Source of the DNA: Fimbriiglobus ruber | GTDB lineage: Bacteria > Planctomycetota > Planctomycetia > Gemmatales > Gemmataceae | Direction: 5' to 3' | DNA length: 64,000 nucleotides | NCBI RefSeq assembly: GCF_002197845.1 | Contig: NZ_NIDE01000001.1 | Coordinates: 744,001-808,000, forward strand | Shown: piece by piece, positions 26,794-64,000 of the stretch | How positions within the stretch are numbered: the first letter of the stretch is position 1 | Layout of the letters: each line of letters begins with the position of its first letter | Notes under the pieces: model-generated | Seen by the model: only the letters and a program-made list of their open reading frames with translations | What the model was told of the DNA's origin: nothing | Database searches by the model: none | Program-made: the position numbers and the translations under genes

Positions 26794-27285
26794 ATGCGCG
26801 TGGTACTCCAGCGGGCCGGCCGCGCCCGCGTTACGGTCTCCGGCGAAACGGTCGGCGAAATCGCCCGCGGGTGGGTCGCTTTGCTCGGCGTCGCCCGCGG
26901 GGACACAGCCGACGACGCCCGCTGGTTAGCTGACAAGATCAGCAATCTGCGGGCATTCGCGGACGCCGACGGGAAGATGAACCTCTCGATACAAGACATC
27001 GCAGGTGGGGTTTTGGTGATCAGCAATTTCACGCTTTATGCCGATTGTCAGAAGGGCCGCCGCCCGAGTTTCATCGCCGCCGCTTCGCCCGCGGACGCGG
27101 AACCACTCTACAAGACCTTCGCGGACGCGGTTCGGGCGCTCGGCGTGCCGGTGGCCGAGGGGCGGTTCGGGGCGGACATGCAAGTCGAGCTGACGAACGA
27201 CGGCCCGGTGACACTGGTCATCGATACCCCGCCGCGGGCCGCCGGGGCCGCCCGCCCGCTTGCCGACGGTCCTACGGAAAGTTAG
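26794..27285 (+). CDS. dtd: D-aminoacyl-tRNA deacylase
   Basis: The protein is 163 aa. It removes D-amino acids wrongly attached to tRNA, recycling the tRNA in the cytoplasm. Seen: '[20 protein letters not shown]', the active-site block '[20 protein letters not shown]' (SQFTL in most bacteria, SNFTL here) and '[14 protein letters not shown]' (the NxGPVT motif with the Gly-cisPro chirality gate replaced in form by D-G-P). Length is slightly over the ~150 aa typical, owing to an Ala/Arg-rich tail. The ribosome site is weak. The next gene starts 46 bp after its stop. Confidence 0.93.
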
Positions 27286-27331
27286 CATTCAAGAATTCTT
27301 ACGCGATCGTCCTCTTCCTGGAGTACCAGCC

Positions 27332-28573
27332 TTGAATCTGCGAGCCATGATCCTGGCGAACGGCGTTGCCGCGGTGGGCTTCGTCTTCGGAGCGGTCGGG
27401 ATTGGGTGCAGCGGGTGCCACGGGTCGGGGGGCGGCGACCCGACCAAAATTAAGATCGTGTCGAGCCTGCCCCGGACGGGCTCCGCCCAGGGGCAGACGG
27501 ACACCATCGTTAACGGCATCCGGATGGCTATCGACGATTACAACGGTGAGGTAGCCGGGCTGAAAATCGAGTTTTTGGACTGGGACGACGCGACCGCCGC
27601 GCAGGGCCAATGGGCGGCCGAGGCCGAAGGGACGAACGCCCAGAAGGCCGCCGCCGACCCGGACGTGGTGGCGTTCATCGGGCCGTACAACTCCGGGGCT
27701 GCCAAAGTCTCGATCCCGATCCTGAACGAAGCCGGTCTCGTGCAAGTCTCTCCCGCGGCCACGTGGCCCGGCCTCACCAAGAAAGTCCCCGGCGACACGA
27801 GCGGCGAACCCGAGATCTACCGGCCGGGCAAACGGATCACATTCTGTCGAGTTTGCCCCACCGACTTCGTCCAGGGACCGTTGAGCGCCGACTTCGTCAA
27901 AAACAAATTAAAAGCCAAAGCGGTTTACATCCTGGACGACAAGGAACTCTACGGCCAGGGCATCGCCACCCTCTTCCACCGGCGGTGCGACGAGATCGGG
28001 CTCACGGTTCTCGGCCACGAAAGCATCGTCGTCACGCAACCGGACTTCCGCTCCCTGATGACCAAGATCAAGGCGCTCAACCCGGACCTCATCTACTTTG
28101 GCGGAACGACCCAGACCAAGGGCGGCCAGATCGCCAAGGACATGAAGAACGAAGGCTTGACCTGCCCGATGATGGCCCCGGACGGGTGCTACGAGAAGGC
28201 GTTCATCACGTCGGCCGGGGCGGACGTTCTGGAAGGCCGGGCCTACGTGACGATCGGCGGCTCGGACCCGTCGACCCTGACCGGCAGCGGGGCCGAGTTC
28301 GTCAAGAAATACAAAGAAAAATATAAGAAGATGCCGGAAGCCTACGCGGTCTACGGGTACGAGTCCGGCAAGGCCGTACTGGAAGCGGTCAAGAAAGTCG
28401 GCAAGAAGGACCGGAACGCCATCCGCGACGCGGTCCTCGCGACCAAGGATTTCACCGCCGGCGCGATCGGGAAATGGAGCTTCGACGAGAACGGCGACAC
28501 CACGCTGGAACAACTCACGATCAGCCGCGTGGAAGGTGGCGAATTTAAGCCGGTCGAGACGATCACCAAGTAA
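27332..28573 (+). CDS. ABC transporter substrate-binding lipoprotein, branched-chain amino acid type
   Basis: The protein is about 413 aa. I chose the TTG at 27332 (MNLRAMILANG) because GGAG lies eight bases upstream; ATG 27347 and an ATG at 27260 overlapping dtd are alternatives. The hydrophobic start ends at 'GAVGIGCSGC', a plausible lipobox, so the mature protein is likely lipid-anchored. The body is a type I periplasmic binding protein (LivJ/LivK/UrtA group): 'KIKIVSSLPRTGSAQGQTDT', 'DPDVVAFIGPYNSGAAKVSI', 'AYVTIGGSDPSTLTG', 'AYAVYGYESGKAVLEAVKKV'. It heads the livHMGF genes on the same strand. The exact substrate (amino acid, urea or other) cannot be told. Confidence 0.9.
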   Translation: MNLRAMILANGVAAVGFVFGAVGIGCSGCHGSGGGDPTKIKIVSSLPRTGSAQGQTDTIVNGIRMAIDDYNGEVAGLKIEFLDWDDATAAQGQWAAEAEGTNAQKAAADPDVVAFIGPYNSGAAKVSIPILNEAGLVQVSPAATWPGLTKKVPGDTSGEPEIYRPGKRITFCRVCPTDFVQGPLSADFVKNKLKAKAVYILDDKELYGQGIATLFHRRCDEIGLTVLGHESIVVTQPDFRSLMTKIKALNPDLIYFGGTTQTKGGQIAKDMKNEGLTCPMMAPDGCYEKAFITSAGADVLEGRAYVTIGGSDPSTLTGSGAEFVKKYKEKYKKMPEAYAVYGYESGKAVLEAVKKVGKKDRNAIRDAVLATKDFTAGAIGKWSFDENGDTTLEQLTISRVEGGEFKPVETITK

Positions 28574-28630
28574 GGCAGGCGGAGGAAACGATTAGATCAC
28601 CTGATGACGTGGGCCTCCCAAGGTTTAGAT

Positions 28631-28768
28631 TTCCCAGGGCGTTGCCCTGGGCTGAGAACCACCAGTCCTTCGGACTGAAAACCATTGGAATGCAGTCGAA
28701 TCGTTCGGAGACGTGTCTGATCACCCCAAAGGGGTAAAAGTTCTCAGCCCAGGGCAACGCCCTGGGAA
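28631..28768. repeat. REP-like element: 29-bp perfect inverted repeat, each arm itself palindromic
   Basis: The arms 28631-28659 and 28740-28768 are perfect reverse complements. Each contains the palindrome CCCAGGGC-GTT-GCCCTGGG. The 80-bp centre has another small hairpin (AGTCC-TTC-GGACT). Partial CCCTGGGA copies follow to 28805. It sits between the binding-protein gene and livH, so it could attenuate or stabilise the operon transcript. Confidence 0.85.
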
Positions 28769-28885
28769 GACTGACGCCCTGGGAAATTAGCATCCTGGGA
28801 TGGTTAGTATGCTGGGACGATGCGAGGTCGGGCTTATTCCCCGGCCTTCGTACCGACGACACCGCTGACAGAGTTTGGGGGACCG

Positions 28886-29830
28886 ATGGGGGAGTTGTTC
28901 GCCGCAATCGATGCGCCCGCGTCGGTGTGGCAGTTTATTATCATCGGTCTGGTCACCGGGGCGCTGTATGCCCTCATCGCACTCGGCTACACGATGGTGT
29001 ACGGGATCATCGAGCTGATCAACTTCGCCCACGGCGACCTGTTCATGCTCGGGTCGTTCCTCGCCCTCCAGGTCGCGGTCACGCTGGGGGCGGCGACGGC
29101 CGATGACGGCGCGATCGGCATGGTCGCCATCGCCCTGATGCTCGTCACCGCCCCGCTCTTTTGTGCCGGTCTGAACGTCGCCGTCGACCGGATCGTGTAT
29201 CGCCCCCTGCGAAATGCACCCAAGCTCGCGCCGCTCGTCTCCGCCATCGGCGTCAGCTTCATCTTCATGAACATCGGCTTGTTCTGGCGCGGGGCGACCG
29301 ACGTCAACTTCCCCAACCTGATCCCGCCCACGAACCTGCTCGAAGGGACGGGCCTGCGGTTCACGGCCAAGGACGCGATGGTGATCGGCGTCACCGTGCC
29401 GACGATGGTCGCGCTGACCGTGTTCGTCCGGTACACGTCGCTCGGCAAGGCGATGCGGGCGACCGCCCAAAACCCGACGGCGGCCCAACTCATGGGCATC
29501 GGCGTCGACCGCGTGATCGCCCTGACGTTCGCCCTCGGCGGCGCGCTGGCCGGCATCGCGAGCGTCGTCTACGGGCTTTACAACAACACCGTCAGTTACC
29601 AGATGGGCTTCCAGAACGGACTCTACGCATTCACGGCGGCCGTCCTCGGGGGCATCGGCAACATCCCCGGGGCCGTGCTCGGCGGCCTCGTGATCGGGCT
29701 GGTGAAAGCACTCGGCGACGCTTACGTCGGAGCTCAGTGGAGTGAGGCCCTCGTCTTCGCAATCCTGATCGTCATCCTGATCTTCCGGCCGACCGGCATT
29801 CTCGGCGCCCGCACCCGGGAGAAAGTATGA
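28886..29830 (+). CDS. livH: Branched-chain amino-acid-type ABC transporter permease
   Basis: The protein is about 314 aa from ATG 28886 (MGELFAAIDAP; GGGGGA upstream); an open extension to 28820 adds residues unlike the family. It is a LivH-type inner-membrane permease with about eight hydrophobic segments, including 'FIIIGLVTGALYALIALGYT' and 'MVYGIIELINFAHGDLFMLG' (the conserved LivH INFAHG motif), 'TALTVFVRYTSLGKAMRATA'-like cytoplasmic loop with 'AQNPTAAQLMGI' (EAA-type coupling loop) and 'AVLGGIGNIPGAVLGGLVIG'. It overlaps livM by 4 bp (ATGA), a sign of translational coupling. Confidence 0.92.
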   Translation: MGELFAAIDAPASVWQFIIIGLVTGALYALIALGYTMVYGIIELINFAHGDLFMLGSFLALQVAVTLGAATADDGAIGMVAIALMLVTAPLFCAGLNVAVDRIVYRPLRNAPKLAPLVSAIGVSFIFMNIGLFWRGATDVNFPNLIPPTNLLEGTGLRFTAKDAMVIGVTVPTMVALTVFVRYTSLGKAMRATAQNPTAAQLMGIGVDRVIALTFALGGALAGIASVVYGLYNNTVSYQMGFQNGLYAFTAAVLGGIGNIPGAVLGGLVIGLVKALGDAYVGAQWSEALVFAILIVILIFRPTGILGARTREKV

Positions 29831-30939
29831 CCTGGACCGCCCCGTTCCGGTACTGGCTGCTGGCCGTACTCGTCCTCGTCGTCGCTTACCCGCTGATACC
29901 GGGGTCGAACCCGATCCTGGGTCAGCAACTCGTCCCGTTGGTGTGTTACGCGATCCTGGCCCTCGGGCTGAACGTGGTGGTCGGGTACACCGGCCTGCTA
30001 CACCTCGGCATCGCCGCTTTTTTCGGCATTGGGGCCTACGTCACGGGCATCCTGACGGTGCCGATGTTCCCGTTCCAGCAGAGCTTCCTGGTCGCCGTCA
30101 TCGCGTCGACGGTGATCGCGTCCGCCGTCGGCGTCGTGACCACTGCCCCGACCCTCAGGCTCCGCGGCGACTACCTCGCCCTCGTGACACTCGGCTTCGG
30201 GCTCATCACCACGTTCGCGATCCGCAATCTGGACAACATCACGGACGGCACAAAGGGGCTGAACCCCGTTAGCCCGAATCTTCTGCCCTGGGTGGACGAC
30301 CCCGACCTGACCAAGTTCGACCGCCCAACCGGGTGGGCCGCGACGTGGCGAGGGTATCCGTACTTCTACTACATCTGCGTCGGGCTCCTCGTTCTGGTCA
30401 TGTGGTTGCTCCGGAACCTGGAGCGGTCCCGCCTCGGCCGTAATTGGGTGGCCCTCCGCGAGGACGAACTCGCCGCCACCTGCATGGGCTTGAACCCGGC
30501 CCGTCTGAAGCTGTCCGCGATCGCCGCCGGGGCCGCGTTGGCCGGACTCGCCGGCGCCCTCTACGCGGTCTCACAACGGACCACCGCCGGCCCTCAGGCT
30601 TACGACTTCAACCGGTCGATGATTACGCTCTGTTGCGTGATCCTCGGCGGGCTCGGTAGCCGCCCCGGTGTGCTCGTCGGTGTGTTCTTACTTCTCGGCT
30701 ACGACACCATCCTCACGCCGTATCTGGATAACCAGATTCAGTTGCTACAGATCAACCCGAACGGGAAAAGTTACCTGAAGGTCAGCGGGTGGCGGTTGTT
30801 CGTATTCGGGCTCGCGCTCATCGTCATGATGCGGTTCCGGCCGGCGGGACTGCTCCCGGCGTGGCGCGTCCGACACGAATTGCAGCCCGCGAACGCGAAC
30901 GAATCCGCCAAACCCGTCGAACCGACTACCGGAGCCTGA
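29827..30939 (+). CDS. livM: Branched-chain amino-acid-type ABC transporter permease
   Basis: The protein is 370 aa, a LivM permease. Seen: 'YAILALGLNVVVGYTGLLHL' followed by 'GIAAFFGIGAYVTGIL' (LivM signature), 'TLRLRGDYLALVTLGFGLIT', 'NITDGTKGLNPVSP' (the ITGGxxG-like loop), the coupling loop 'LREDELAATCMGLNPARLKL', and 'MITLCCVILGGLGSRPGVLV'. Its ATG overlaps the livH stop. The last ~30 residues are hydrophilic (ELQPANANESAKP). It works with LivH as the transmembrane pair. Confidence 0.92.
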   Translation: MTWTAPFRYWLLAVLVLVVAYPLIPGSNPILGQQLVPLVCYAILALGLNVVVGYTGLLHLGIAAFFGIGAYVTGILTVPMFPFQQSFLVAVIASTVIASAVGVVTTAPTLRLRGDYLALVTLGFGLITTFAIRNLDNITDGTKGLNPVSPNLLPWVDDPDLTKFDRPTGWAATWRGYPYFYYICVGLLVLVMWLLRNLERSRLGRNWVALREDELAATCMGLNPARLKLSAIAAGAALAGLAGALYAVSQRTTAGPQAYDFNRSMITLCCVILGGLGSRPGVLVGVFLLLGYDTILTPYLDNQIQLLQINPNGKSYLKVSGWRLFVFGLALIVMMRFRPAGLLPAWRVRHELQPANANESAKPVEPTTGA

Positions 30940-30942
30940 TGC

Positions 30943-31980
30943 GTGTCCGTTCTCGCCGTCGATAACTTGACCGTCCGGTTCGGCGGGATCACCGCCGTGA
31001 ACCAGGTTTCGTTGACCGTCGAAGAGGGCCAGATCTTCTCGGTGATCGGCCCGAACGGGGCCGGCAAAACGACGGTGTTCAACGCCATCACCGGCATCTA
31101 CGAGCCGACCGAGGGGCGGGTCTCGTTCAGCGGCCGATCGGTCGCCAAGCCGTTTACGCTAAAGACGCTATTGTTTTCACTCCTGATCGGACTCCTGACC
31201 GGAGTGCTGTTCCTGCTGTTCGTCGTTGACGTCGACACCCTCTGGCGGGTCACCATCCGCGAAAACACAGTTGGCACGCGGGGATCGTTCCCAGTCCGCA
31301 AGGCGATCGGGGACGGCTGGGATTACATCACCTCCCGCGGCGACCGCGCGACCGCGGGCTTCCTCGGCGGGTTCCTGCTCGGCGTCACCGGCACGCTGGT
31401 CGTCTGGCACCGCGGGAGGGTGTCGCCGGACGTGATCTGTCAGGAAGGCATCGCCCGGACGTTCCAGAATATCCGTCTTTTTCACGCCATGACCGTGCTG
31501 GAGAACGTGCTGATCGGGATGAGCAAGGAGATGACGACCCGGTTCCCCAGCCTGGCCCTCCACCTCCCAGGCCACAAGCGGGAAGAAGCGGGCGCCCGAC
31601 ACACCGCCTGCGAGTTGCTGTCGTTCGTCGGGCTGACTGACAAGCACAACGACCTGGCCAGCAACCTCCCTTACGGCGACCAGCGGCGGCTCGAAATCGC
31701 CCGCGCGCTAGCCACGAAGCCGAAACTCCTTTTGCTCGACGAACCCGCCGCTGGGATGAACCCGAGCGAAACGACCGGCCTCATGGACCTGATCCGCAAG
31801 ATCCGCGACCGCGGCGTCACAGTTGTCCTGATCGAACACCACATGAACCTCGTCATGGGTATCTCCGACCGCGTCGCCGTCCTCGACTACGGCGTGAAGA
31901 TCGCCGAAGGCGCCCCGGGCGACGTCTCCCGCGACCCGAAAGTTATCGAGGCGTACCTCGGCAAGGAGGAAGTCTCGTGA
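30943..31980 (+). CDS. livG: LivG-type ABC ATPase with a membrane-helix insertion
   Basis: The protein is 345 aa from GTG 30943; ordinary LivG is about 255. Walker A is VIGPNGAGKTTVFNAITGIY (~residues 33-52), Q-loop region 'GIARTFQNIRLFHAMTVLEN', signature 'LPYGDQRRLEIARALA', Walker B 'KLLLLDEPAAGMN', and the H-loop in 'VLIEHHMNLVMGI'. Between the Walker A subdomain and the Q-loop (about residues 66-165) lies ~100 aa absent from the family. It holds two hydrophobic stretches, 'LLFSLLIGLLTGVLFLLFVV' and 'AGFLGGFLLGVTGTLVVW', linked by a ~45-residue charged loop. The ATPase would thus be membrane-tethered. All catalytic motifs are kept. It overlaps livF by 4 bp. Confidence 0.92.
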   Translation: MSVLAVDNLTVRFGGITAVNQVSLTVEEGQIFSVIGPNGAGKTTVFNAITGIYEPTEGRVSFSGRSVAKPFTLKTLLFSLLIGLLTGVLFLLFVVDVDTLWRVTIRENTVGTRGSFPVRKAIGDGWDYITSRGDRATAGFLGGFLLGVTGTLVVWHRGRVSPDVICQEGIARTFQNIRLFHAMTVLENVLIGMSKEMTTRFPSLALHLPGHKREEAGARHTACELLSFVGLTDKHNDLASNLPYGDQRRLEIARALATKPKLLLLDEPAAGMNPSETTGLMDLIRKIRDRGVTVVLIEHHMNLVMGISDRVAVLDYGVKIAEGAPGDVSRDPKVIEAYLGKEEVS

Positions 31981-32696
31981 CGACCCCGGCACTGCTCACC
32001 GTCGACCGCCTGCGTTCCGGCTACGGCCCGATCGACGTTCTACATGACATTTCGCTGACCGTCGCTCAGGGCGAGATCGTTGCCCTGATTGGCGCGAACG
32101 GCGCCGGCAAAACGACGACGCTGATGTCGCTGTCCGGCCTCGTGAAAGCCCGCGGCGGCCGTGTTATGTTCGACGGACACGACCTGACGACAGTCCCCGC
32201 CCACCAGATCGTGCGCCTCGGCCTCGCGCAATCGCCCGAGGGCCGGAAAATCTTCCCACGCCTGTCGGTTCTGGAAAACCTGGAGATGGGGGCGTTCACC
32301 CGGTCCGACCCGGACGGCGTGGCCGCGGACATCGAGAAGGCGTTCACCATGTTCCCGATCCTCCGGGAGCGAAAGGCCCAGGCCGGAGGGTTGTTGTCCG
32401 GCGGCCAACAGCAGATGCTCGCGATCGCCCGCGCGCTCATGGCGCGGCCGAAGCTGCTCCTCCTCGACGAACCCTCACTCGGCCTCGCGCCGCAGATCGT
32501 GGTGCAGATCTTCGGGGTCATCAAGGAATTGAACAACCAGGGCGTGTCCGTGCTGCTCGTCGAACAGAACGCCCGGATGGCGCTGAAGGTCGCCCACCGT
32601 GGGTACGTCCTCGAAACCGGCCGCGTCACCTGCGAGGACCGGGCGGACAAGCTCCTCAACGACCCGCGTATTCGTGCGGCTTACCTGGGCGAGTAG
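31977..32696 (+). CDS. livF: LivF-type ABC ATPase
   Basis: The protein is 239 aa, normal LivF length. Walker A is GANGAGKTTTLMSLSGLV, then 'LAQSPEGRKIFPRLSVLENL' (the LivF Q-loop block), signature 'LLSGGQQQMLAIARALMARP', Walker B 'KLLLLDEPSLGLAPQIVVQI', and H-loop-type 'VSVLLVEQNARMALKVAHRG', where Gln replaces His as is usual in LivF. Last gene of the operon; its start overlaps the livG stop (ATGA). It pairs with LivG to drive the transporter. Confidence 0.95.
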   Translation: MTTPALLTVDRLRSGYGPIDVLHDISLTVAQGEIVALIGANGAGKTTTLMSLSGLVKARGGRVMFDGHDLTTVPAHQIVRLGLAQSPEGRKIFPRLSVLENLEMGAFTRSDPDGVAADIEKAFTMFPILRERKAQAGGLLSGGQQQMLAIARALMARPKLLLLDEPSLGLAPQIVVQIFGVIKELNNQGVSVLLVEQNARMALKVAHRGYVLETGRVTCEDRADKLLNDPRIRAAYLGE

Positions 32697-32700
32697 TAAG

Positions 32701-33322
32701 AAGTCATCAAGTCGTCAGGTCTTCAAGTCATCAAGTCGTGTTCAGGAACCGTTGCCATCAAGGCTCGGCGCGGGTCTCCGACCCCGCCGTTCGGCCCGAC
32801 CGCAGGTCTCCCGTCCCGACGCGCGCCTCCCTCGCACTTGCGCTCGGCGCGGGTCTCCGACCCGCGCCGAGCGCAAGTGCGAGGGAGCCTTCGACCTCAG
32901 ACTAACCCCGCGCACCGGGTGGGAGGATGGAAGGGAACCCATATATCCTGCCGGGGCCACGAAACCGGAGCCCGAGGGGAGTTTCTGCGCTTTTCGCACC
33001 TTGCAGCGCGTTTTCTGACAGTGGACGGACCAGGACATCCATACACGGAAAAATGCTGGCTCAGTAGACCGCGTTCCGTCGCCACGCATCGACTTGCATA
33101 CGGACCAGGGGCGGGTTTTTGCGCGGTCTTGCGCTCGGTTCGACCGAACGTTATGTTCCCAAGAAGCGAGGCCGATGAACGTTCCTGAATAATCTTCCAC
33201 TCCGTGAATCGGGTCGTTATCCCTCGAACGGGGGCTAATCGCGAACGGGGTCTGTCCTTCACTTGTTGCGTCAATCCCCAGACTCGACTTGAAGACTTGA
33301 AGACCTGACGACTTGATGACTT
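32701..33322. repeat. MITE-like element with 38-bp terminal inverted repeats
   Basis: The arms 32701-32738 and 33285-33322 are reverse complements with one mismatch. Each arm is internally repetitive (AAGTC-x-TCAAGTC units). The ~545-bp interior has no believable gene; open frames on both strands lack ribosome sites and family likeness. It contains the long hairpin at 32827-32887. No target duplication is obvious. It fills the gap between livF and the sigma factor gene. Confidence 0.7.
32827..32887. repeat. 29-bp perfect hairpin inside the MITE-like element
   Basis: The arms 32827-32855 and 32859-32887 are perfect complements around a 3-nt loop (TCC). Part of the sequence (TCGGCGCGGGTCTCCGACC) also occurs as a direct partial copy near 32765. 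As RNA it would fold very stably and may end livF transcription, though it has no T-tract. Confidence 0.75.
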
Positions 33323-33422
33323 ATCTCTTCATAGGTAGCATTCGTACTCCAAGTCGAAATTTGTGTTCGGCCGGGCGGGGCGGATTTTTTGCAATCCGCT
33401 CCGGCCCCTTCTCCGTCTGGTC

Positions 33423-34016
33423 ATGTGGGAACCTATGGGCACACGCGGGGCCACACCAGCGGGCGGGTCGGCGAGCGGCGGTGCCAGCGAGGCGCCGGCC
33501 GCCCACCCCCTCGTTGTCGCGTTCAACGAATTCCGGGACGAGCTGGTCAGTACGCTCGTGTACATGCTCGGGAACCGGGACGACGCCCTCGACGCGGCCC
33601 AGGAATCGTTCCTCAAGTGCTGGCGCGCCCGCGAGACCCTCGGGGAAGTGACTAACCTCCGGGCGTGGGTGTTCCGGGTCGGGATGAACACCGCGCGGGA
33701 TCTCCAGCGGAGCGCCTGGAGCCGCCGGGTGAAACCCCTGGTCGGAGAAGAACACATGCTCATGGCCCGCGACACCTCTCCCGGCCTCGCCCTCGAAGAC
33801 CAGGAAGACCTCGACAAACTCCGCCGGGCGATCGCCCAACTCCGGCAGGACGAGAAGGAAGTGTTCCTCCTGCGGCAGAACGGCGACCTGACTTACGAGC
33901 AAATCGCCGAGATCCGCCACGCCCCGGTCGGCACCGTAAAAACCCAGATGCGATCGGCCCTTATGAAACTCCGAGGCGTACTCGCCGCCGGCCAGCCGGC
34001 CGACGCCGGCGTGTAG
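33423..34016 (+). CDS. ECF-type RNA polymerase sigma factor
   Basis: The protein is about 197 aa. Sigma region 2: 'FRDELVSTLVYMLGNRDDAL' then 'DAAQESFLKCWRARET' and 'NLRAWVFRVGMNTARDLQRS'. Sigma region 4: 'LRQDEKEVFLLRQNGDLTYE' then 'QIAEIRHAPVGTVKTQMRSA', the helix-turn-helix that reads the -35 element. The start is uncertain: ATG 33423 or ATG 33435 (GTGGGA just before), and an upstream frame to 33363 lacks support. The next gene, 113 bp on, begins with an anti-sigma zinc finger, so this is probably its target sigma factor. Confidence 0.88.
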   Translation: MWEPMGTRGATPAGGSASGGASEAPAAHPLVVAFNEFRDELVSTLVYMLGNRDDALDAAQESFLKCWRARETLGEVTNLRAWVFRVGMNTARDLQRSAWSRRVKPLVGEEHMLMARDTSPGLALEDQEDLDKLRRAIAQLRQDEKEVFLLRQNGDLTYEQIAEIRHAPVGTVKTQMRSALMKLRGVLAAGQPADAGV

Positions 34017-34129
34017 CCCGCCCGATCAACCTCTCATGCGATTCACCGCCGCGGGAAAATCGCCCGCGCCACCAATATTTCGTACCGCACACCCACACCC
34101 CGCCCGCGGGCCGGGAGGAGTCGATTGTC

Positions 34130-37100
34130 ATGCTTCCTTGTCGAACCTGCCAGGATCAGTTGCTCGACCACTTATACGGCCTCCTCGACCCGTCCGAGGC
34201 GGCCGCGGTCGACGCACACCTCGCCGAGTGCCCGGAATGCGCCGCGGCCCGCGATCGGGCGGGCCGCGTCCAGGGCCTGATCGCCCGCGCGGCCAAGGCC
34301 GAATTCTCCGAAGTCTCGTTCTCCCCACCGGCCCCGACGACTGCGATTGAAGCCGTTCCGGCTAACCCCCAGCCGGACACTGTGTCGCCCGTTCCGAATA
34401 CCATTCGCCGCGTATGGGTGCGGTGGGTGGTCGCCGCCAGCGTTCTGCTCGGGTTCGCCGGGCTGGGCGGTCCGGCCTCGCGCGATCTGGTCGGCTTCTT
34501 GATGTACAAGCCGAAGGTCGACCGGGGCTACGCGGCGGTTAAGCGGGCCGAAGACCAGCGCGCCGCGGCGGTCGAGGAATTAGCCCACGCCCGTGAGCAG
34601 TTGGCTAAACGGGCGGTCGACGCCCACAAGACTCAAGAAACGGTTGTTTCGGAATGGGTGAAGGCGGAAGAAGTCGCGTTGGCCGCGGCCGCGAGCCGGC
34701 CGTTCGTGGTCGACGTCCGCGGCCCGGCCGCCGCGGTCCCGGGTGCCCCGAACGAATACGCGATCAAGGTCGCCGAACGGGACGGCCAATCGAAAGCCGC
34801 CGCGGTGGAAGCCAAGGTGCGGGACGCGGACGGCAAAGTCCTGTTCGAGCGCAAGTACCCGGCTACCGACGGCGCGGCCGAGAAAATGTTGAAGTTGCCG
34901 GCCGCCATGTGGGACGGCGTCAAGCCGGGGGCCGAACTGGTCCTGTCCGTCACCGCGACCGACGAAAAGAACGGCGCGAAGAGCGAGATCACGGAGAAGG
35001 TCCGGCTCCAGGAGCCCGTTTACACGACCTTTTTGACCACCGATAAGCCGATGTACCGGCCGGGGGAAACGCTCTATTTCCGGTCACTGACCCTCGACCG
35101 GACGCGGTTCTTGCCGCCGGAGAGCGACACGAACTTGCGGATCTCGCTTCTCGCTCCGTCCGGTCAGCCGGTCCCGGAGATGGAACTGATCGGCCTGGCC
35201 AAGCCCGGCACACAAACCGCCGGTTCTCCCGTGAAATCGATCCTCGGCCCGGACGGTAAGCCGGTCCGCGGCGTCGGCACCGGGATGTTCACGCTGCCGC
35301 CGACACTCGACGGCGGGGAATACACCCTCGCGGTCCACGAAATCCCAATCAACGAATTCCAGCCCCGACCGGGTGCCCGCCCGCTCGCCGAGCGGAAGTT
35401 CGTCGTCAACAAGTACACGCCCGATTTCCTGCAAAAGAAGCTCGAATTCGACGGCAAGACCTACGGCCCGGGCGACATGGTCCAGGCCAAGATCGAGGTC
35501 AAGGACCAGGCGAAGCCCCTCGCCGGCGGGCACCTCGGGTACGCCATTTCGATCACCCTGCCGAACAACACGACCCAGTTCGTCCAACCCGACGTGGCTC
35601 CGCCGCAAACCGATGGCGCGGGGGTGGCGGCGGTCAAGTTCACACTGCCGAAGGTGGAAGAGATCAAGGACGCGCAACTGACTGTGACCGTACAAACGGC
35701 GGCGGTGGTCGAAGTCCTGGTCCGTAAGATTCCGCTCGCCACGCGGAAGCTCGACGTGGCGTTCTTCCCGGAAGGCGGCGACCTCCTGTTCGGCGTCCCG
35801 TGCCGCGTTTACTTCCGGGCCACCACGACGACCGGCAAACCGGCGGACGTCACCGGCGTCCTGACCGACGGCAAAGACCCCGTCCGCGGGCCGGACGGTA
35901 AGCCGGTGACCGTCGTCACCTTGACCGACCCCGATCACCCCGGGGCCAACCAGGGCGTCGGGGCGTTCGCGTTCACCCCGGAGAAGGGCAAGACTTACGG
36001 CGTGAAGTTCGACAAGCCCGTCGGCCTCGTCCAACCGCCGACCGGATACGCTTTGCCCGCGGCGAAAGACGACGGCGTCGTGCTGTCCGTGCCGGACGGC
36101 GTGACGAAGGGCGGTGAGAAGATTCACGTCCGCCTGTGGACGGCCGGCAAGGCTCGCAAGGTCGTGGTCGGCGCGTACACCCGCGGCCGCACGGTCGCGC
36201 ACCAGCACGCCGCGATTGAGCCCGGGAAGATGACCGAACTGGCCCTGGATCCGAGCGACGCGAAACTCGGCGGCGTGACCCGCGTGACAGTGTTCGAGGA
36301 GCCGGCGGACGAAGACCGCGGCCGTGTCGACCTCAAGCCCGTCGCCGAGCGGCTCGTCTTCCGGCAACCGGGCGAGGCGCTCAAGCTCGCGTTCAAGGCG
36401 GCCCGGGCCAACGGCAAGCCGAATACCGGAGCCTTCGTTCCGGGCGACGCGGTCGAATTGCGCGTGACCGCGACCGACGAGGCCGGCAAGCCCAAGCCGG
36501 CCGTGCTGTGGGCCGCCGTGGTGAACCAGAGCGTGATCACGATGGCGGACGAGAAGACCGCGCGGCTCATGCCGACGCACTTCCTGCTCTGCGGCGAAAT
36601 CCGCAAGCCGGACGACCTCGAACACGCCGACTTCCTCCTCACCGACCACCCGACGGCGGCTATCGCGCTCGACTTGCTCCTGGGCACCCAGGGCTGGCGG
36701 CGGTTCGCGGAGCAGGCCCCGGAGCAGTTCCGCAACCGCGAACCGGCCGAGGGTGACCGCTTGCTCGTGGCGATGGGGGCCGGCGGCCCGGTCCCGGGCG
36801 GCTGGCGGACCGAAGTGCGCCGGGTGTTCGACGAATACTGGCCGAAGTACGAATCCGCGACACTCGACCTCGACCGCGCCGAGGAAACCCGCAAGTCCGA
36901 GTCCACCACCAGCGACCTGAGGACCCAACAGGCACAAGCGGAGGCGGCTTACAATGCCGCGGTGAACCAGTACAAGACTGCCGTTTCCGACGTGACGTTT
37001 TTCGATGAAGGTCTGCAACTCCGGCGGTACTGGCTGCCGGCGACCCTGGGCTTCACCGCCGGCGTCGTACTTATCTTCCTGGCTGTCCGGGCCGCCCGCG

Positions 37101-40100
37101 GCACCTCCGCCCCCGAACGCCGCACCCTCGGATACGCGGCCGGCGCGTTTTTGGCCCTCGGCTTGTTCGTCGCCGTGACCGTTTTGGTGACTTCCCTCTC
37201 GGGCAGCGAGTGGAAGCAGTACCGCCACCTGGCGCCGACCGAAGATCGGTACGCCCGTTACCGTGGTCCCGTGGCTGCAAGTGCGCCGGTAGTTGTCTCG
37301 GCCGATCCTGCGGCACCGGACGCGGACGAGCCCGGGAAAGCGGAAGGCGTAGAGGTCGCCGAAGAGATGCTTGACAAGGCGAAAGACGGGGAAGCTAAAG
37401 GGATCGCGAAAGACGATAGAGAGCGATTCGCGGAGCGAAAGTTCGCGGTCCCCGGCAACCAACCGCCCCCGGCTCCGTTGGCGGCCCCAGCCGCTGGAGC
37501 GGCCGCACCTGTTGCTCTCGCAGCGAAGGACGGCCCGGCCGGACCTGGCGGCTTTGCACCTCATGCACGTGCGGTCGGCGGAGGGCTAGGAGGGGGAGGC
37601 TTCCCGGGTGCTGGCGGAGCTAAGCCGGGTGCCGGCTTCCCGGGTGGGATGGGTGTGCAGAATGGCAATGGCTTCGGCGGCGCCCCCGGTCAGGGAATCG
37701 CTGGAGGCATCGGGGGGATCGGTGGCATTGGCGGGATCGGTGGTGGGCTTCAGGGCGGTATCGGCGGGATCGGTGGTGGCCTTCAGGGATTCGGCGGCGC
37801 TGCTGCCCCAGGAATGCCTGCCCCAGGAATGCCTGCCGCTGCCGGTATGGCTCCTCCCGGTATGGGTGGCCTGGGCATGGGGCTCGGTGGCCCCGGGATG
37901 ATGCCCGCGGGCCAACCTGGGGCGCCGATGGGGGGACCGCAGGGTGCGGGTGGCCGAGGCGGGTTCAGAGGAAACATGCCCGCGGCCAAGAAGCGGGCGG
38001 CCGACGCCGATTTCGAGCAGCCGCACGAAAGACGCATTCAGATGGCCAAACGTCAGGAACAACTTTTACGCAAAGCCCCGATGCAAGACCGACTCATGTT
38101 CGGGCTCGAAAAAGAAGTGTTGCGCGAGAACGACGCCAAGGAAAAGCAGCAAAACGCCCGGCGAGGGGTCCAACAGGTTCTCGGGGAGATCGCCGCCGCG
38201 ATGCCGCGGACGCCGCAACTCGTCGTCCGCGAGTACGCCCACATCCACAAGACGCCCACCGACCCGAACGACGAGACGCGGACGGACTTCACAGAAACCT
38301 TGCTGTGGAAGCCGGTCATCGTCCTCCCGACGGACGGCACGACCAAGCTGAACTTCGGGCTGAGCGACGCGGTGAACGCCTACCAGGTGCTGATCGCCGG
38401 GCACACGCTCGACGGCCGGATCGGGGCGATCACCGGCTCGATCGAAGTCCGAAAGCCGTTTTCCCTGGACCCGAAGCTGCCCCAGGAGATCAGTTCCACG
38501 GACAAGATCGAAGTACCCGTCGTGCTGACCAACGGCACCGACATTGCCCGGACGGCTGATGTGTCGGTTTCCCTGTCCGGACTGAAGCTCGACGGGGCGG
38601 ACAAGTTCTCCGCACCCCTGACCGCGAACGGCGGCGGCCGGAGGATTGTCCGCCTGACTCCCGAAAAGATGGAAGGGCCGCTCGCGGTGCGCCTCTCCGC
38701 AACCGCGGGGAACGGCCTCAAGGACTCGATCGAGCGGACCCTTACCGTCGTCCCCGATGGCTTCCCGGCCCAGGGGGCCATGTCGGACGTGTTGGAGCAG
38801 ACGGCCCGGTTGGGCGTCAAACTCCCGCCGACCTGGGTTCCCGGCACTCTCAAAGTGACGGCGACCGTCTTCCCGAACACGCTGTCCGAACTCCAGGCGG
38901 GGCTCGACGGCCTCCTCCGCGAGCCGAACGGCTGTTTTGAGCAGAGTTCGACCTCGAACTACCCGAACGTGCTGATCATGGATTACCTCCGCGAGAGCAA
39001 CCAGGCCAAGCCGGACGTGAGCAAGCGGGCCAAGGATCTCATGGACAACGGGTACGTCAAACTCACCGGCTACGAGTGCCCGAAGACCGGCGCCCCGGCC
39101 CGGATCGGCTACGAGTGGTTCGGCTCCCAGGACCGCCCGCACGAAGCCCTGACCGCTTACGGCTTGCTCCAGTTCACCGACATGGCCCGCGTCTACCCGG
39201 TCGACCCGGAGATGCTCAAGCGGACCAAGGCGTTCCTGATCGACAGCCGGGACGGTAAGGGCGGCTTCAAGCGGAACAGCGTCGCCCTCGACACGTTCGG
39301 CCGCGCCCCGGACCACGTCACCAACGCCTACATCGTCTGGGCCGTGACCGAGGCCGAGAAGGCGTCCGGCGGCGACAAGGCCGACCTGACCCGCGAACTC
39401 GCCGCCCTGCAGGAAATCGCGAAAGACGGCCCGCCGGCGAAAGACCCGTACTTCCTCTCGCTGGTGGCCAACGCGCTGCTCAACCGCGGCAAGCAAGCCG
39501 AGGGCGTCGACCTGCTCAAGAAGGTGGTCGCCGTGCAAGCCAAGGACGGGAGCGTACCGGGCGCGGAAACGAGCATCACCGCCTCGGGCGGTCGCGACCT
39601 GTTGATCGAGACCACGGCCCTCGCCGTCCTCGGGTGGCTCAAGGCGAACCGCCCGGAACTCTTCGTCGTGCCCACGCAGAACGCGATGAAGTGGGTCGGC
39701 GCCCAGCGGGGCGGCGGCGGGGCGTTCGGGTCGACGCAGGCGACGATCCTGGCGCTCAAGTCGCTGATCGAGTTCGCCCGGGCGAACAAGAAGCCGGCGG
39801 AGTCGGGCGAGTTCCGCGTCTTCGTCGGCGGCAAGGAAGTCGCGAAGAAGGCGTTCACCACGGAAACGGCCGGCCCGATCGCGGTCGAGATCCCGGACGC
39901 CGAGAAGACGTTCAAACCGGGCGAGACCGAAGTCCGCGTCGAGACCGGGGCGAAGAACACGTACCCCGTCTCGGTTGCGTGGACCTGCCGGACGCAGCAG
40001 CCCAGCAGTTCGGATGAATGTGCGGTCCGCCTCGGGGCGAAACTGGCCCGGGCGGAGGTGTCCGAGGGCGAATCGGTCCGGTTCGACGTCAAGGTCGAGA

Positions 40101-40459
40101 ACCTGAAGGACAAGGCGCACGGGATGGTCGTCGCGGTCGTCGGCATCCCGGCGGGCCTGAAACTGCCCGAAGACATGAAGCAGCTCAAGGCGCTCACCGA
40201 CCGCCCCGTGAACGGGTCCGAGCCGACTGTCAGTTACTGGGAGACCCGCGGCCGGGAACTCGTGCTGTACTGGCGCGGCATGACGCCGAAGCAGACAATC
40301 TCGTTCGGGATCGACCTGATCGCCGATGTGCCCGGCGAATATCGCGGGCCGGCGAGCCGGGCCTACCTGTACTACAACGCGGACCACAAGCACTGGGTGG
40401 AACCGGCAACCGTGACGATCCGTGCGAAGTCGACCGAGGAGCAAACCGCCAAGAAGTAA
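34130..40459 (+). CDS. Membrane anti-sigma zinc finger fused to an alpha-2-macroglobulin-like protein
   Basis: It is 2,109 aa from ATG 34130 (GGAGGAG nine bases upstream). Residues 1-40 are a zf-HC2 anti-sigma finger: C4, C7, H30-x3-C34-x2-C37. A transmembrane helix follows (~97-114, VRWVVAASVLLGFAGLGG). From ~115 come macroglobulin (MG) domains with 'TDKPMYRPGETLYFRSLTLD' typical of MG2. Two more membrane helices lie at ~966-985 and ~1000-1022. Residues ~1147-1282 are a Gly/Met/Pro-rich low-complexity stretch. Then the A2M domain with 'NGCFEQSSTSNYPN' (~1600), keeping Cys and Gln of the CxEQ thioester, and an alpha/alpha-toroid thioester domain ('HEALTAYGLLQFTDMARVYP'). A2M proteins trap proteases in the envelope. 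The fusion suggests a protease or damage sensor controlling the upstream sigma factor. Confidence 0.88.
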   Translation: MLPCRTCQDQLLDHLYGLLDPSEAAAVDAHLAECPECAAARDRAGRVQGLIARAAKAEFSEVSFSPPAPTTAIEAVPANPQPDTVSPVPNTIRRVWVRWVVAASVLLGFAGLGGPASRDLVGFLMYKPKVDRGYAAVKRAEDQRAAAVEELAHAREQLAKRAVDAHKTQETVVSEWVKAEEVALAAAASRPFVVDVRGPAAAVPGAPNEYAIKVAERDGQSKAAAVEAKVRDADGKVLFERKYPATDGAAEKMLKLPAAMWDGVKPGAELVLSVTATDEKNGAKSEITEKVRLQEPVYTTFLTTDKPMYRPGETLYFRSLTLDRTRFLPPESDTNLRISLLAPSGQPVPEMELIGLAKPGTQTAGSPVKSILGPDGKPVRGVGTGMFTLPPTLDGGEYTLAVHEIPINEFQPRPGARPLAERKFVVNKYTPDFLQKKLEFDGKTYGPGDMVQAKIEVKDQAKPLAGGHLGYAISITLPNNTTQFVQPDVAPPQTDGAGVAAVKFTLPKVEEIKDAQLTVTVQTAAVVEVLVRKIPLATRKLDVAFFPEGGDLLFGVPCRVYFRATTTTGKPADVTGVLTDGKDPVRGPDGKPVTVVTLTDPDHPGANQGVGAFAFTPEKGKTYGVKFDKPVGLVQPPTGYALPAAKDDGVVLSVPDGVTKGGEKIHVRLWTAGKARKVVVGAYTRGRTVAHQHAAIEPGKMTELALDPSDAKLGGVTRVTVFEEPADEDRGRVDLKPVAERLVFRQPGEALKLAFKAARANGKPNTGAFVPGDAVELRVTATDEAGKPKPAVLWAAVVNQSVITMADEKTARLMPTHFLLCGEIRKPDDLEHADFLLTDHPTAAIALDLLLGTQGWRRFAEQAPEQFRNREPAEGDRLLVAMGAGGPVPGGWRTEVRRVFDEYWPKYESATLDLDRAEETRKSESTTSDLRTQQAQAEAAYNAAVNQYKTAVSDVTFFDEGLQLRRYWLPATLGFTAGVVLIFLAVRAARGTSAPERRTLGYAAGAFLALGLFVAVTVLVTSLSGSEWKQYRHLAPTEDRYARYRGPVAASAPVVVSADPAAPDADEPGKAEGVEVAEEMLDKAKDGEAKGIAKDDRERFAERKFAVPGNQPPPAPLAAPAAGAAAPVALAAKDGPAGPGGFAPHARAVGGGLGGGGFPGAGGAKPGAGFPGGMGVQNGNGFGGAPGQGIAGGIGGIGGIGGIGGGLQGGIGGIGGGLQGFGGAAAPGMPAPGMPAAAGMAPPGMGGLGMGLGGPGMMPAGQPGAPMGGPQGAGGRGGFRGNMPAAKKRAADADFEQPHERRIQMAKRQEQLLRKAPMQDRLMFGLEKEVLRENDAKEKQQNARRGVQQVLGEIAAAMPRTPQLVVREYAHIHKTPTDPNDETRTDFTETLLWKPVIVLPTDGTTKLNFGLSDAVNAYQVLIAGHTLDGRIGAITGSIEVRKPFSLDPKLPQEISSTDKIEVPVVLTNGTDIARTADVSVSLSGLKLDGADKFSAPLTANGGGRRIVRLTPEKMEGPLAVRLSATAGNGLKDSIERTLTVVPDGFPAQGAMSDVLEQTARLGVKLPPTWVPGTLKVTATVFPNTLSELQAGLDGLLREPNGCFEQSSTSNYPNVLIMDYLRESNQAKPDVSKRAKDLMDNGYVKLTGYECPKTGAPARIGYEWFGSQDRPHEALTAYGLLQFTDMARVYPVDPEMLKRTKAFLIDSRDGKGGFKRNSVALDTFGRAPDHVTNAYIVWAVTEAEKASGGDKADLTRELAALQEIAKDGPPAKDPYFLSLVANALLNRGKQAEGVDLLKKVVAVQAKDGSVPGAETSITASGGRDLLIETTALAVLGWLKANRPELFVVPTQNAMKWVGAQRGGGGAFGSTQATILALKSLIEFARANKKPAESGEFRVFVGGKEVAKKAFTTETAGPIAVEIPDAEKTFKPGETEVRVETGAKNTYPVSVAWTCRTQQPSSSDECAVRLGAKLARAEVSEGESVRFDVKVENLKDKAHGMVVAVVGIPAGLKLPEDMKQLKALTDRPVNGSEPTVSYWETRGRELVLYWRGMTPKQTISFGIDLIADVPGEYRGPASRAYLYYNADHKHWVEPATVTIRAKSTEEQTAKK

Positions 40460-56019: not shown

Positions 56020-59000
56020 TTATCTACTCTCGAGCTGGTTATAATATTCGTCTATTATGGAATTGCGATTCTTGTTCCAATTGGCCTGAGCCAGTGGGTC
56101 GCCACCGTGTTTAGTCTGATCGTCATACAATTTATCTATAGCAGCCGCCTGCTTGATGGCCACATCGACATATGGCGAGTAATAGCTGTTGATCATCTTA
56201 TTGATATCTCCTGCCAGACCAAAGCCAAAACCACCGCTGCTATCCACTGACTCAGACGTATGCAAGTCAGGACAATACAGAACCTGTAACGACAGGAAGG
56301 CATTCTTGCCTTTGAAAAGACCCTCGAAAAATTTATTCCATTTCGAAGCCACGTATAGCCCATTAGCGACGTGCCCTTGTTCGTGCATTACCAAGCCGGC
56401 TGGTTTTGTGCCGTTAGTCCACGCTCCTGTTACAATTACTTTCATTTTTAAGTCCGTAATTTTGAAATCTACATATTCGCAACAGCTATTCTTGAGTTGC
56501 GTTATACCTGTAACCTTCCAATCCCATGTCAAATCGAAATTATATTTGACTATCCCTTGATAACTTGTATCAGGCGGACCATACCGTGGCAGATTAAACT
56601 GTAAATTCTTTGGATCGTCTATTGTTTCGATACCGCCATACGCGGTATGACCTGAGCCATTAGCGTACACAGGCTCAGGGGATACGGGATCTCCTCCGGG
56701 GTACACAGCTTCTGTTCCAGAAGGATCAACCCCTACATTTGGTTCATTGGAAATAAATCCATACAAATTCTCGTCGCCTGCCCCAAATCCCAGCGGATCA
56801 GTCGTCATCCACCGCCCCTGCGTTGCACTGTACCACCGCTCATCAGCCTCATACAATCCGCTGACCGTGTCGTGAGCCATGCCTTGGAATAGAACCGCCC
56901 AAGCGTAGCTAGATGTTGTTCGCGAGCCATAGCTCCCGTCCATGATTGCAACCGCTCCGAACGGGGCATAGGCGTACCGTTCAACTACGGTCCCATTGCC
57001 ATCCACTAGGGCGACTGTGTCCCAGTTCGCATCCTGAACTGGCCACAGGCGTTGGATCGAGGTTCCAGTCGCGGTCAACCCTGTCCCACTGGTATCCGTG
57101 TCCCGATCCACTAGTGCGTTTACATAAACCGGGCTCCACACGTTTCGTGCAGTGTACTCGGTTCCGACTTGCTGCTCAAGAACTTGCCACTGATTCGAGT
57201 AATACGAGTTCGTCGTCGTTCCCGAACTCGTCTGCGTAACCAATCGATTCAGCCCGTCGTACGTGTTCGTCTCAAGTGTTGTTACGCCCGACGATTTAAC
57301 GGCGACCAGCCGGTTCCAGGCATCGTACACGTACTGTAGACCCGTCTCGTCAATCGTCGTGTTCCCATTTGCATCGTATGTCGGCGTTGTCGCCCCACTC
57401 ACACCCGTGTACTCGTTCTGGGCGTTCGCCGTCCGCGTCTGTGTCGTGCCGTTTGTGGTCACACTGGTCATGTTCCCGAGCGCGTCGTAATCCCACGACT
57501 GGCTAGCGCTTGGTGTCCCGGTGATGCCTGTCTTCGTGCCGTTCAGCGTTCCTTGTGCGTACGACGTGAGCTGATTCAGCCCGTCGTACGTGAAGAGCTG
57601 GCTGAATGCGCTGTTGGCCGCGTCGTTCTCCCACAACACGTTCCCGTCCGCGTCGTACCCGTACTGCTCATCCGAGACAGACGTGCTGGTCGATGGATCG
57701 TACCAGTTCTGGTCGACTACTCGGCCGAAACGGTCTAAACCAGTATATAGGTCCCCGGCGTCTCCGGTACTTCCGGTCTGGCTGATGTATGTCAGGTTTA
57801 CCCCTGATTCAGGGTGGTCCCGCTCCACCACCGTATCCAGGCCCAGGTACAGGTACGATTCCAGCGTCCCGGTGTCGTCCGACAGCGATGTCAACCGACT
57901 GATCGTGTTGTCGAGTCCGCTCGCATAGTTATCGTCGACTACGTACCCATCGGGATAGGTCGTACTCGTCTGCCGGCTATTATTGACTCCACTCGCCATC
58001 TCGGTGTAGGCGTATTGGACTTTCGGCGTGGTCGACGTATTCACCGAGCCGGACACGGCTTGGTATTCAGTCGTGAGCTGCCCGAGGCCGTTGTAAATAT
58101 CCTCGACCTGATTGACGATGCTCCCACCGGAGGCCGCGTTGTAACTGGTGGTGAGATACGGGTTGCCCTGGCTGTCGTACGCCGTATCAATCCGCCGCAC
58201 GCTCCCGTCAACACCCGTACCGAGTGTCGTCACTGCATCAGACGTGACTCGGCCGAGGACGTCGTACGTGTAAGTGTGAGTCGTCCCATTCGGGTCAGTG
58301 CTGGTCGCCGTCTCTCCCAAGGCGTCGACCGTGACCGTCGTATCTAAAGATGTACTTGGCTCACCCGTGGTTGGGTCCGGGTTCTCGGTGACACCGACGA
58401 TGTCGTTCGAGTTGATCGCGCTGCCGCTCGCAGTAGTCACCCCGTAAACGTACTGAGTGATCTGGTTGGGACCGCTCGCCTGGACCGCGATCAGGCTGGT
58501 CATTCCGGCTGGACCGTAGGTGTATTCGGTCGTCTTGTTGGTGTCATCCGTCGGCGTCCCGTCTGTGTAATCGTCGATTTCCTCGGTCGTTCGGCCGAGG
58601 GCATCGTATGAGTATTCCGTCACCAACCCCAGCGGGTCCGTCGTAGACGCGACATTCCCGGCCGCATCGTAAGCGGTGGCCGTGACCATCACGGTTGTGG
58701 ACGCGGTCGGTACCGAACCCGGTCGGGTCCACGCGGTTCCGCCATTCGTCCCCACGTTCACATCCGCGATGTCCCGGTTCGCTGCATCGTAGTAGCTAGC
58801 GGTGTACGATACCCGAGCCTCGACACCAGTCGTCGGAGTGCCGAGCGCACCGGTTCCGGTCGCGTTGTCGAACCGATCGCTGGTGATCGTCTCAATCGGG
58901 TTCCCGTCTCCGTCGTACGCCGTTTGCGTTTGGGTCAAGACATGGTCGCCCGTCACGCTCGATGCATCGGTATACGAAGTTCCACTAGCACCATCCGTCT

Positions 59001-63771: not shown

Positions 63772-64000
63772 GGGCGTCTCGGGGCAACGAGGGGCAAACG
63801 TTATAAATGCTCCGCACGGGGCGGAGACATCGTTGTTAATCAAAAAGTACGACAGCCGAAGCCGGGACTATGCGAGAAAGACGTGCCCGCAAGAGCCCTG
63901 ATCAAGTCGAAAAAATTGGTCGCTTGCTCTTAAAACTAAGATTCAACCAAGAAAATACAAGGCAACGGTTGTCAGGGAAGAGGAAGATAACACGACGAGA
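63772..64000. other. Region upstream of the Rhs gene
   Basis: It is 229 bp to the window edge and should hold the Rhs promoter. No gene, strong ribosome site or repeat is seen. Confidence 0.4.

Follow-up and report, generated by a model that had tools for sequence, protein, structure and literature searches.

A 64,000-nucleotide stretch of the planctomycete Fimbriiglobus ruber (assembly GCF_002197845.1, contig NZ_NIDE01000001.1, positions 744,001 to 808,000 of the forward strand; hereafter the window) contains a gene for an extracytoplasmic function (ECF) sigma factor followed by a gene for a large alpha-2-macroglobulin (A2M)-like protein with an anti-sigma-like N-terminus. Comparison with related loci indicates that this A2M-like protein is very probably a fused, membrane-bound anti-sigma factor of the neighboring sigma factor. 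The source genome comprises 12.4 Mb in 20 contigs, and the closest named relatives in the A2M tree are Fimbriiglobus metagenome genomes (Gemmataceae, Planctomycetota). The features on which the argument draws are as follows, by position in the window:

33392..33418, + strand: promoter-like element CAATCC-N16-CGTCT immediately 5' of the sigma gene, a motif common to relatives
33435..34016, + strand: ECF sigma factor gene, alpha type in a tree of 55 sigmas, with Sigma70_r2 and r4_2; alternative starts 33363 (longest frame) and 33423
34130..40459, + strand: anti-sigma/A2M fusion gene, 2109 aa, from the open frame and Pfam
34130..34303, + strand: class I anti-sigma domain (zf-HC2), residues 1-58, predicted cytoplasmic, with candidate ligands C4, H30, C34 and C37
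34412..34468, + strand: predicted membrane helix 1, residues 95-113, from hydrophobicity; inside a modelled continuous helix 93-188, with residues 61-97 at a predicted local distance difference test score (pLDDT) <50
34700..36721, + strand: first macroglobulin half, residues 191-864, from the model match to human C3c chain 2qki_D
36806..37096, + strand: modelled helical stalk, residues 893-989, continuing into membrane helix 2; pLDDT block means 72-90 to residue 970 and 61-68 beyond
37031..37192, + strand: membrane hairpin, helices 2 and 3 (peaks 968 and 1003), from hydrophobicity; positive loop (+3), predicted cytoplasmic
37307..38263, + strand: low-complexity Gly/Ala/Pro linker, residues 1060-1378 (24% G, 17% A, 11% P), at the bait-region position
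38276..40399, + strand: second macroglobulin half with thioester domain, about residues 1383-2090, from Pfam A2M and TED and the model match to native human A2ML1
38933..38944, + strand: thioester motif CFEQ, Cys1602-Gln1605, conserved in relatives

The fusion frame runs without an internal stop. Pfam assigned zf-HC2 to residues 4-38 (31.3 bits, cut-off 22.2) and placed MG2 (300-357), A2M (1390-1478) and TED_complement (1580-1881) each above cut-off; bMG10 stayed under its own (21.5 bits vs 26.2). In its MG2, A2M and thioester domains and its CXEQ motif, here CFEQ, the protein matches the thioester-type A2M family. Three hydrophobic peaks occur, at residues 95, 968 and 1003. The longest sigma frame, 33363-34016, carries Sigma70_r2 and Sigma70_r4_2 above the Pfam cut-offs; no region 3 match was listed in the Pfam scan, which fits the ECF type (regions 2 and 4), and 113 bp separate its end from the start of the fusion on the same strand. 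A first-pass annotation, made by a model from the sequence alone, had described a 2,109-residue chain with a finger, three membrane helices, two macroglobulin halves and CFEQ, 113 bp downstream of an ECF sigma gene, and each of these elements was recovered. The sigma start that it gave, 33423, is a possible one; the ATG at 33435 is likelier, given the distance at which the promoter motif lies in relatives.

Loci for comparison came from two sources: 31 genomes belonging to the order or close to it, and a scan of contigs from named genomes, which yielded at least 579 relatives, the best 80 of which were used. Domain-bearing A2Ms were present in 23 of the 31 genomes, and relatives of the fusion are widespread in Planctomycetota; carriers bearing the names of cultured strains include Zavarzinella formosa DSM 19928 (L101), Gemmata sp. 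IIL30 (L127) and Planctomycetes bacterium K23_9 (L125). Among loci with an inner N-terminal domain of any type and at least 700 nt of upstream sequence, the window included, a sigma gene lay directly upstream on the same strand in 56 of 56. The 56 consist of 51 rows of the first table together with L069, L070, L157, L098 and L102, L157 being counted on a zinc-less domain recognized by eye. By comparison, a same-strand sigma match was found at 0 of 40 A2M loci without the inner domain in a local profile rescan that divergent sigmas may escape; the profile was built from the first locus set and at first missed the divergent sigmas of L098 and L102. Pfam analysis of 52 frames upstream of domain-less loci gave no sigma family among 25 of the 49 matched families. 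In an earlier state of the table (53/0 vs 2/49) a Fisher test gave p ~1e-27, a value inflated by relatedness. The linkage count sets aside 20 rows with <700 nt upstream, L107 (N-terminus past the contig end), the duplicates L058, L060, L061, L065, L085 and L024, and L084, an A2M of another type (CIEQ) that has no domain and a sigma-like frame 373 bp upstream.

Other neighbors of the fusion gene do not recur in this way. When ten other flanking genes of the window were compared with 31 related loci, the best of them recurred in 3 of 31, whereas all 31 carry the sigma gene, which argues that the sigma adjacency is not due to chance; these loci were chosen from the sigma-linked set, many with few kb of flank, and so control for neighbors and not for the linkage itself. 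As a separate observation, at three Bacteroidota A2M loci without an anti-sigma domain (L141, L142 and L169) the opposite strand encodes an ECF sigma factor, at a distance of about 70 to 600 bp from the start of the A2M gene.

The inner domain itself resembles known anti-sigma factors. In the window protein the candidate finger ligands are H30, C34 and C37 (Hx3Cx2C) plus C4, and in 25 zinc-form relatives selected by the motif H/C-x3-C-x2-C, C4 is invariant even though it is not part of the selection motif. A profile of these 25 sequences matched the solved chains 3hug (E 2.8e-6), which we take to be RslA, 5frf (RsrA, 1.8e-4), 5wuq (RsiW, 1.7e-3) and 8rlz (DdvA, 5.3e-3), with two weaker matches to proteins other than anti-sigma factors. 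A model of residues 1-1070 places four helices in the domain (4-9, 11-15, 21-33 and 35-56), with pLDDT 89-96 across residues 1-50. The profile match to known anti-sigma factors, together with the sigma linkage, rules out the finger as an isolated chance match and supports the tie between finger and neighboring sigma factor that the first-pass annotation had drawn.

That annotation had also named homologs lacking the finger and keeping the sigma gene as a case that would tell against its reading. Such homologs do occur, the Hx3Cx2C motif being absent in 21 of 51 sigma-linked rows with the sigma gene still present. In the closest of them, however, the domain persists: seven zinc-less sequences align with the 25 zinc forms over the whole domain (hhalign probability 99.5%). 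Zinc is thereby ruled out as the defining feature, since zinc-less forms retain both domain and sigma gene. The class I anti-sigma family is reported to include both zinc and zinc-less members, with zinc dispensable (PMC7406223). The anti-sigma reading therefore stands, and the weight moves from the zinc to the domain.

The strongest evidence that inner domain and sigma factor work as a pair comes from their joint change. The tree of 55 sigmas divides into alpha, beta and gamma clades of 45, 4 and 5 rows respectively, with L084 in addition. The domain types track these clades, zf-HC2-like or zinc-less domains going with alpha, an 'LCEE' type with beta and a third type with gamma. Profiles for the beta and gamma domains were built from the sequences that they label, so that the type labels are descriptive. 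L098 and L102 carry an inner segment of another kind, of about 113 residues, beside a divergent upstream sigma that scores above the Sigma70_r4 cut-off and below that of r2; we term these delta. In a tree of the A2M C-terminal halves (quick method, SH-aLRT (Shimodaira-Hasegawa-like approximate likelihood ratio test) support, midpoint root; L098 and L102 still labelled 'none'), the ten beta, delta and domain-less copies fall together in one supported group, next to Zavarzinella and other zinc-less alpha members. For L096, L097, L103 and L104, members of this group with a short N-terminus, no sigma gene was found upstream. As judged from these trees, inner domain and sigma factor change together while the A2M body stays. 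Their exchange, and their joint loss, had no place in the first-pass annotation, which likewise did not mention the membrane hairpin at the bait position or the members without a thioester domain that are described below. The exchange also supplies naturally matched pairs on which specificity could be tested. F. ruber itself has a second A2M gene (L023:1143-7196, on contig G000:C2) that encodes an LCEE-type N-terminus and is accompanied by a beta sigma gene. L024 (G000:C13), almost identical to it, stops at a contig edge and may be a recent duplication or an assembly duplicate.

The outer part of the protein is recognizable as an A2M on both sides of a long insert. The model of the N-terminal half (mean pLDDT 78) aligns over residues 193-864 to human C3c chain 2qki_D 2-615 (Z 14.7, root-mean-square deviation (rmsd) 7.7, 545 residues), and that of the C-terminal half (mean pLDDT 82) aligns from residue 1390 to native human A2ML1 733-1454 (Z 36.4, rmsd 5.2, 661 residues). 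The sequence alignment to human A2M starts at residue 1378, just past what we take to be the position of the human bait region. Between the halves lie about 500 residues made up of the helical stalk, two membrane helices and the Gly/Ala/Pro-rich linker, so that in the window protein the bait-region position is occupied by a membrane hairpin and a low-complexity linker. Among the measurable sigma-linked members the insert has two membrane helices in 41 of 43, three in L098 and one in L066, with 13 further sigma-linked members falling outside this measurement; in free A2Ms no membrane helix was found in the insert (0 of 39 rows, 37 loci). Insert lengths are 138-345 in free A2Ms, 186 and 200 in the gamma members and 265-675 in the remaining members. 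The domain-less Gemmatales copies keep the hairpin, which is thus a feature of the membrane form rather than of the inner domain itself. Its place at the bait position is a matter of sequence anatomy, from which the topology can be predicted.

Charge around the membrane helices was averaged over 49 members, excluding L066, L071 and L072, which have no helix pair. Mean net charge is +3.4 before helix 1 and +0.2 after it, +0.4 before helix 2, +2.2 in the hairpin loop (positive in 44 of 49 members) and -0.3 after helix 3. The positive charge before helix 1 and in the loop fits an N-terminus inside and both A2M halves outside the cytoplasmic membrane, as we predict and as the first-pass annotation had assumed for the halves.

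Upstream of the sigma genes a promoter-like motif follows the sigma type. Of 45 regions upstream of alpha sigma genes, 30 contain CAA[ATC][CA]-N16-18-CGTC (against a mean of 1.6 and a maximum of 4 in dinucleotide shuffles). None of the 4 beta or 5 gamma regions does; instead, beta regions carry CGTCAACTAAGT (3 of 4) and gamma regions GCGCATA (4 of 5). The patterns were drawn from the same regions in which they were counted, so these are descriptive counts. Since the motif varies with the sigma type and stands ahead of the sigma gene, it is suggestive of autoregulation. No site resembling a sigma-70 promoter or a terminator was found in or around the gap between the two genes (33200-34300), and the 4-base overlap of sigma and A2M frames in 9 of 57 sigma-linked rows (duplicates included, mechanical starts) fits a single operon. 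In the F. ruber genome the strict form CAATCC-N15-17-CGTCT was found at 29 places, against 5 for the reversed pattern; thirteen of the 29 share one identical stretch and three share a second. This strict scan of the genome gave no further convincing promoter, and no regulon beyond the operon is claimed. The stretch with 13 copies is 28 bases long and apparently part of a repeated element.

These features lead us to propose a model in which sigma gene and fusion gene would form one operon and the N-terminal helical domain would hold the sigma factor in the cytoplasm. The long transmembrane helix, the second helical stalk and the membrane hairpin would join this inner domain to the outer A2M body. 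With hairpin and linker at the bait position, a protease cutting the linker would part the two halves, leaving the thioester half detached from the membrane-anchored one. A change of shape in the A2M body, of the kind reported for bacterial A2M (PMC4498604), would follow, and the thioester half would trap the protease. The shape change, or a follow-on cleavage, may free the sigma factor, which would transcribe its own operon from the CAATC-N16-CGTC promoter and so replace the used trap. For the model as a whole, from operon and retained sigma factor through cleavage at the bait position to self-resupply, we consider the chances slightly better than even; cleavage by a protease as the trigger is plausible, at about even chances. 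A more specific picture, of a trap with a membrane-threaded bait loop that reports its own use, releases the sigma factor that resupplies both, and has had its sigma/anti-sigma end exchanged more than once with the trap kept, is more tentative and falls somewhat short of even. If the model holds, it would describe an A2M wired to a transcription switch, with a natural trigger readable as gene expression, and the hairpin in the place of the bait region would represent a novel means of relaying cleavage from one side of a membrane to the other. To our knowledge the role of bacterial A2Ms is unsettled.

Several observations weigh against parts of this model. The zinc-less profile alone gave no significant match to a solved anti-sigma factor (best 3hug, E 0.11), and Pfam assigns no anti-sigma domain to ten non-zinc or gamma N-termini. 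The window protein has a charge of +1 on both flanks of helix 1, beside its +3 hairpin loop. The alpha motif is not present as written in 15 of 45 alpha upstream regions, and of the 13 strict-motif places in the genome that remain after the two sets of identical copies, only the sigma-gene site lies <=60 nt from a start codon outside another same-strand frame, by the frame lengths applied in the scan. In L118 the thioester Cys is replaced by Pro. The thioester domain is absent in nine sigma-linked members (L066, L068, L071, L072, L073, L075, L078, L082 and L083), three further ones being cut by contig ends, and L071 and L072 lack the hairpin as well. In those nine members trapping cannot be required for signalling. 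They fit a different possibility, that the protein is a true anti-sigma factor with an A2M body that responds to a signal other than protease cleavage, such as mechanical strain, a ligand or damage to the envelope, and that the thioester is a separate defence or a remnant; the sigma linkage is equal in members with and without the thioester domain, which also favors it. On the other hand, 43 of the 44 members with a thioester domain retain the thioester Cys, in strongly conserved surroundings, which suggests use, and we regard sensing of something other than protease cleavage as rather unlikely, if a serious contender.

We consider it improbable that the A2M body is mainly a defence product that only shields the cleavage site, and that general envelope stress frees the sigma factor through ordinary regulated proteolysis acting on the stalk, in the manner of RseA and RsiW. 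Membrane-bound anti-sigma factors, RsiV among them, can be released by regulated intramembrane proteolysis, but stalk, hairpin and both A2M halves stand in one chain with a conserved layout, seemingly more than a shield requires. A chance fusion, with the finger a leftover of domain shuffling that has no role and the sigma adjacency a coincidence, might be expected in a genome with so many ECF-type sigma genes (120 matches to sigma region 4) and so many kinases whose N-termini resemble zf-HC2; the linkage in every domain-bearing locus counted, the joint exchange and the joint loss disfavor it so strongly that we give it hardly any credence.

Three known groups of proteins come closest to the fusion. 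Like class I anti-sigma factors (RslA, RsrA, RsiW, ChrR and RskA), the fusion has an N-terminal domain predicted to be helical, a gene directly beside an ECF sigma gene and a membrane anchor; it shares with them the Hx3Cx2C motif in its zinc form and zinc-less forms within one family (PMC7406223). Unlike them, its outer part is a complete A2M, and it has three membrane helices, two of them within the A2M body. RsgI and the lysozyme-responsive RsiV likewise couple an outer sensor to an inner sigma-holding domain in one chain. The outer domain of RsgI is carbohydrate-binding, whereas that of the fusion is a protease-trap fold of about 1900 residues. With bacterial A2Ms (ECAM of Escherichia coli and SaA2M of Salmonella) and the metazoan A2M, C3, TEP and CD109 the fusion shares macroglobulin, A2M and thioester domains and CXEQ, and the model of its C-terminal half matches native A2ML1; it differs from free bacterial A2Ms (39 rows, ECAM not among them) in the membrane hairpin at the bait position. 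Sigma/anti-sigma systems with a fused outer sensor are thus known, as are A2Ms. In agreement with the first-pass annotation, which had thought a direct fusion as a protease sensor undescribed, our literature searches found no account of an anti-sigma/A2M fusion or of a membrane-threaded bait position, so that both appear new, with the proviso that classifications of ECF factors or planctomycetes may tabulate the fusion.

Three Gemmatales A2M genes without the anti-sigma domain have an in-frame TGA exactly at the thioester Cys codon (L086:6635-6637, L081:7193-7195 and L090:5981-5983), and a search of 61 genomes added a fourth (L212:1801-1803), whose same-genus homologue L211 has TGC. All four genomes with a TGA gene contain a match to tRNA-Sec of at least 72.9 bits. 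The match is not exclusive to them, three Cys-type genomes also having one; in the 14 genomes scanned, eight reached at least 70 bits and six had a best match of at most 53.2. Ten bases past the UGA, an RNA hairpin of up to 14 pairs is predicted in the four TGA genes at -17.4 to -25.5 kcal/mol, and the best fold of the corresponding stretch in four Cys homologues is -6.8 to -10.5 kcal/mol; the Cys homologues L211 and L213 form a weaker stem at a similar place. Against shuffles the z-score is -1.7 to -2.3 in three of the TGA genes. Across the four, pairing is seen in 98% of cells and two base pairs are substituted on both strands of the stem; 20 of 500 shuffles reached this covariation score. 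None of the Rfam selenocysteine insertion sequence (SECIS) families matched. These features suggest a possible selenocysteine at the A2M thioester, for which a disabling mutation at the codon is the rival explanation; no literature on selenocysteine in a bacterial macroglobulin was among the matches listed.

Nine other large proteins of the F. ruber genome with zf-HC2-like N-termini were scanned (L006-L013 and L016). Eight are protein kinases, and the ninth, L006, contains DUF4349 and has a sigma gene immediately 5' of it; among the matches listed, Pfam zf-HC2 appears at E 1e-4 in L006, L007, L008 and L009. Elsewhere in the window, positions 27260-32696 (+), just 5' of the sigma gene, hold a branched-chain amino acid ABC transporter operon by the look of the translations, and 56020-63843 (-) encodes a 2607-aa protein with FG-GAP and RHS repeats.

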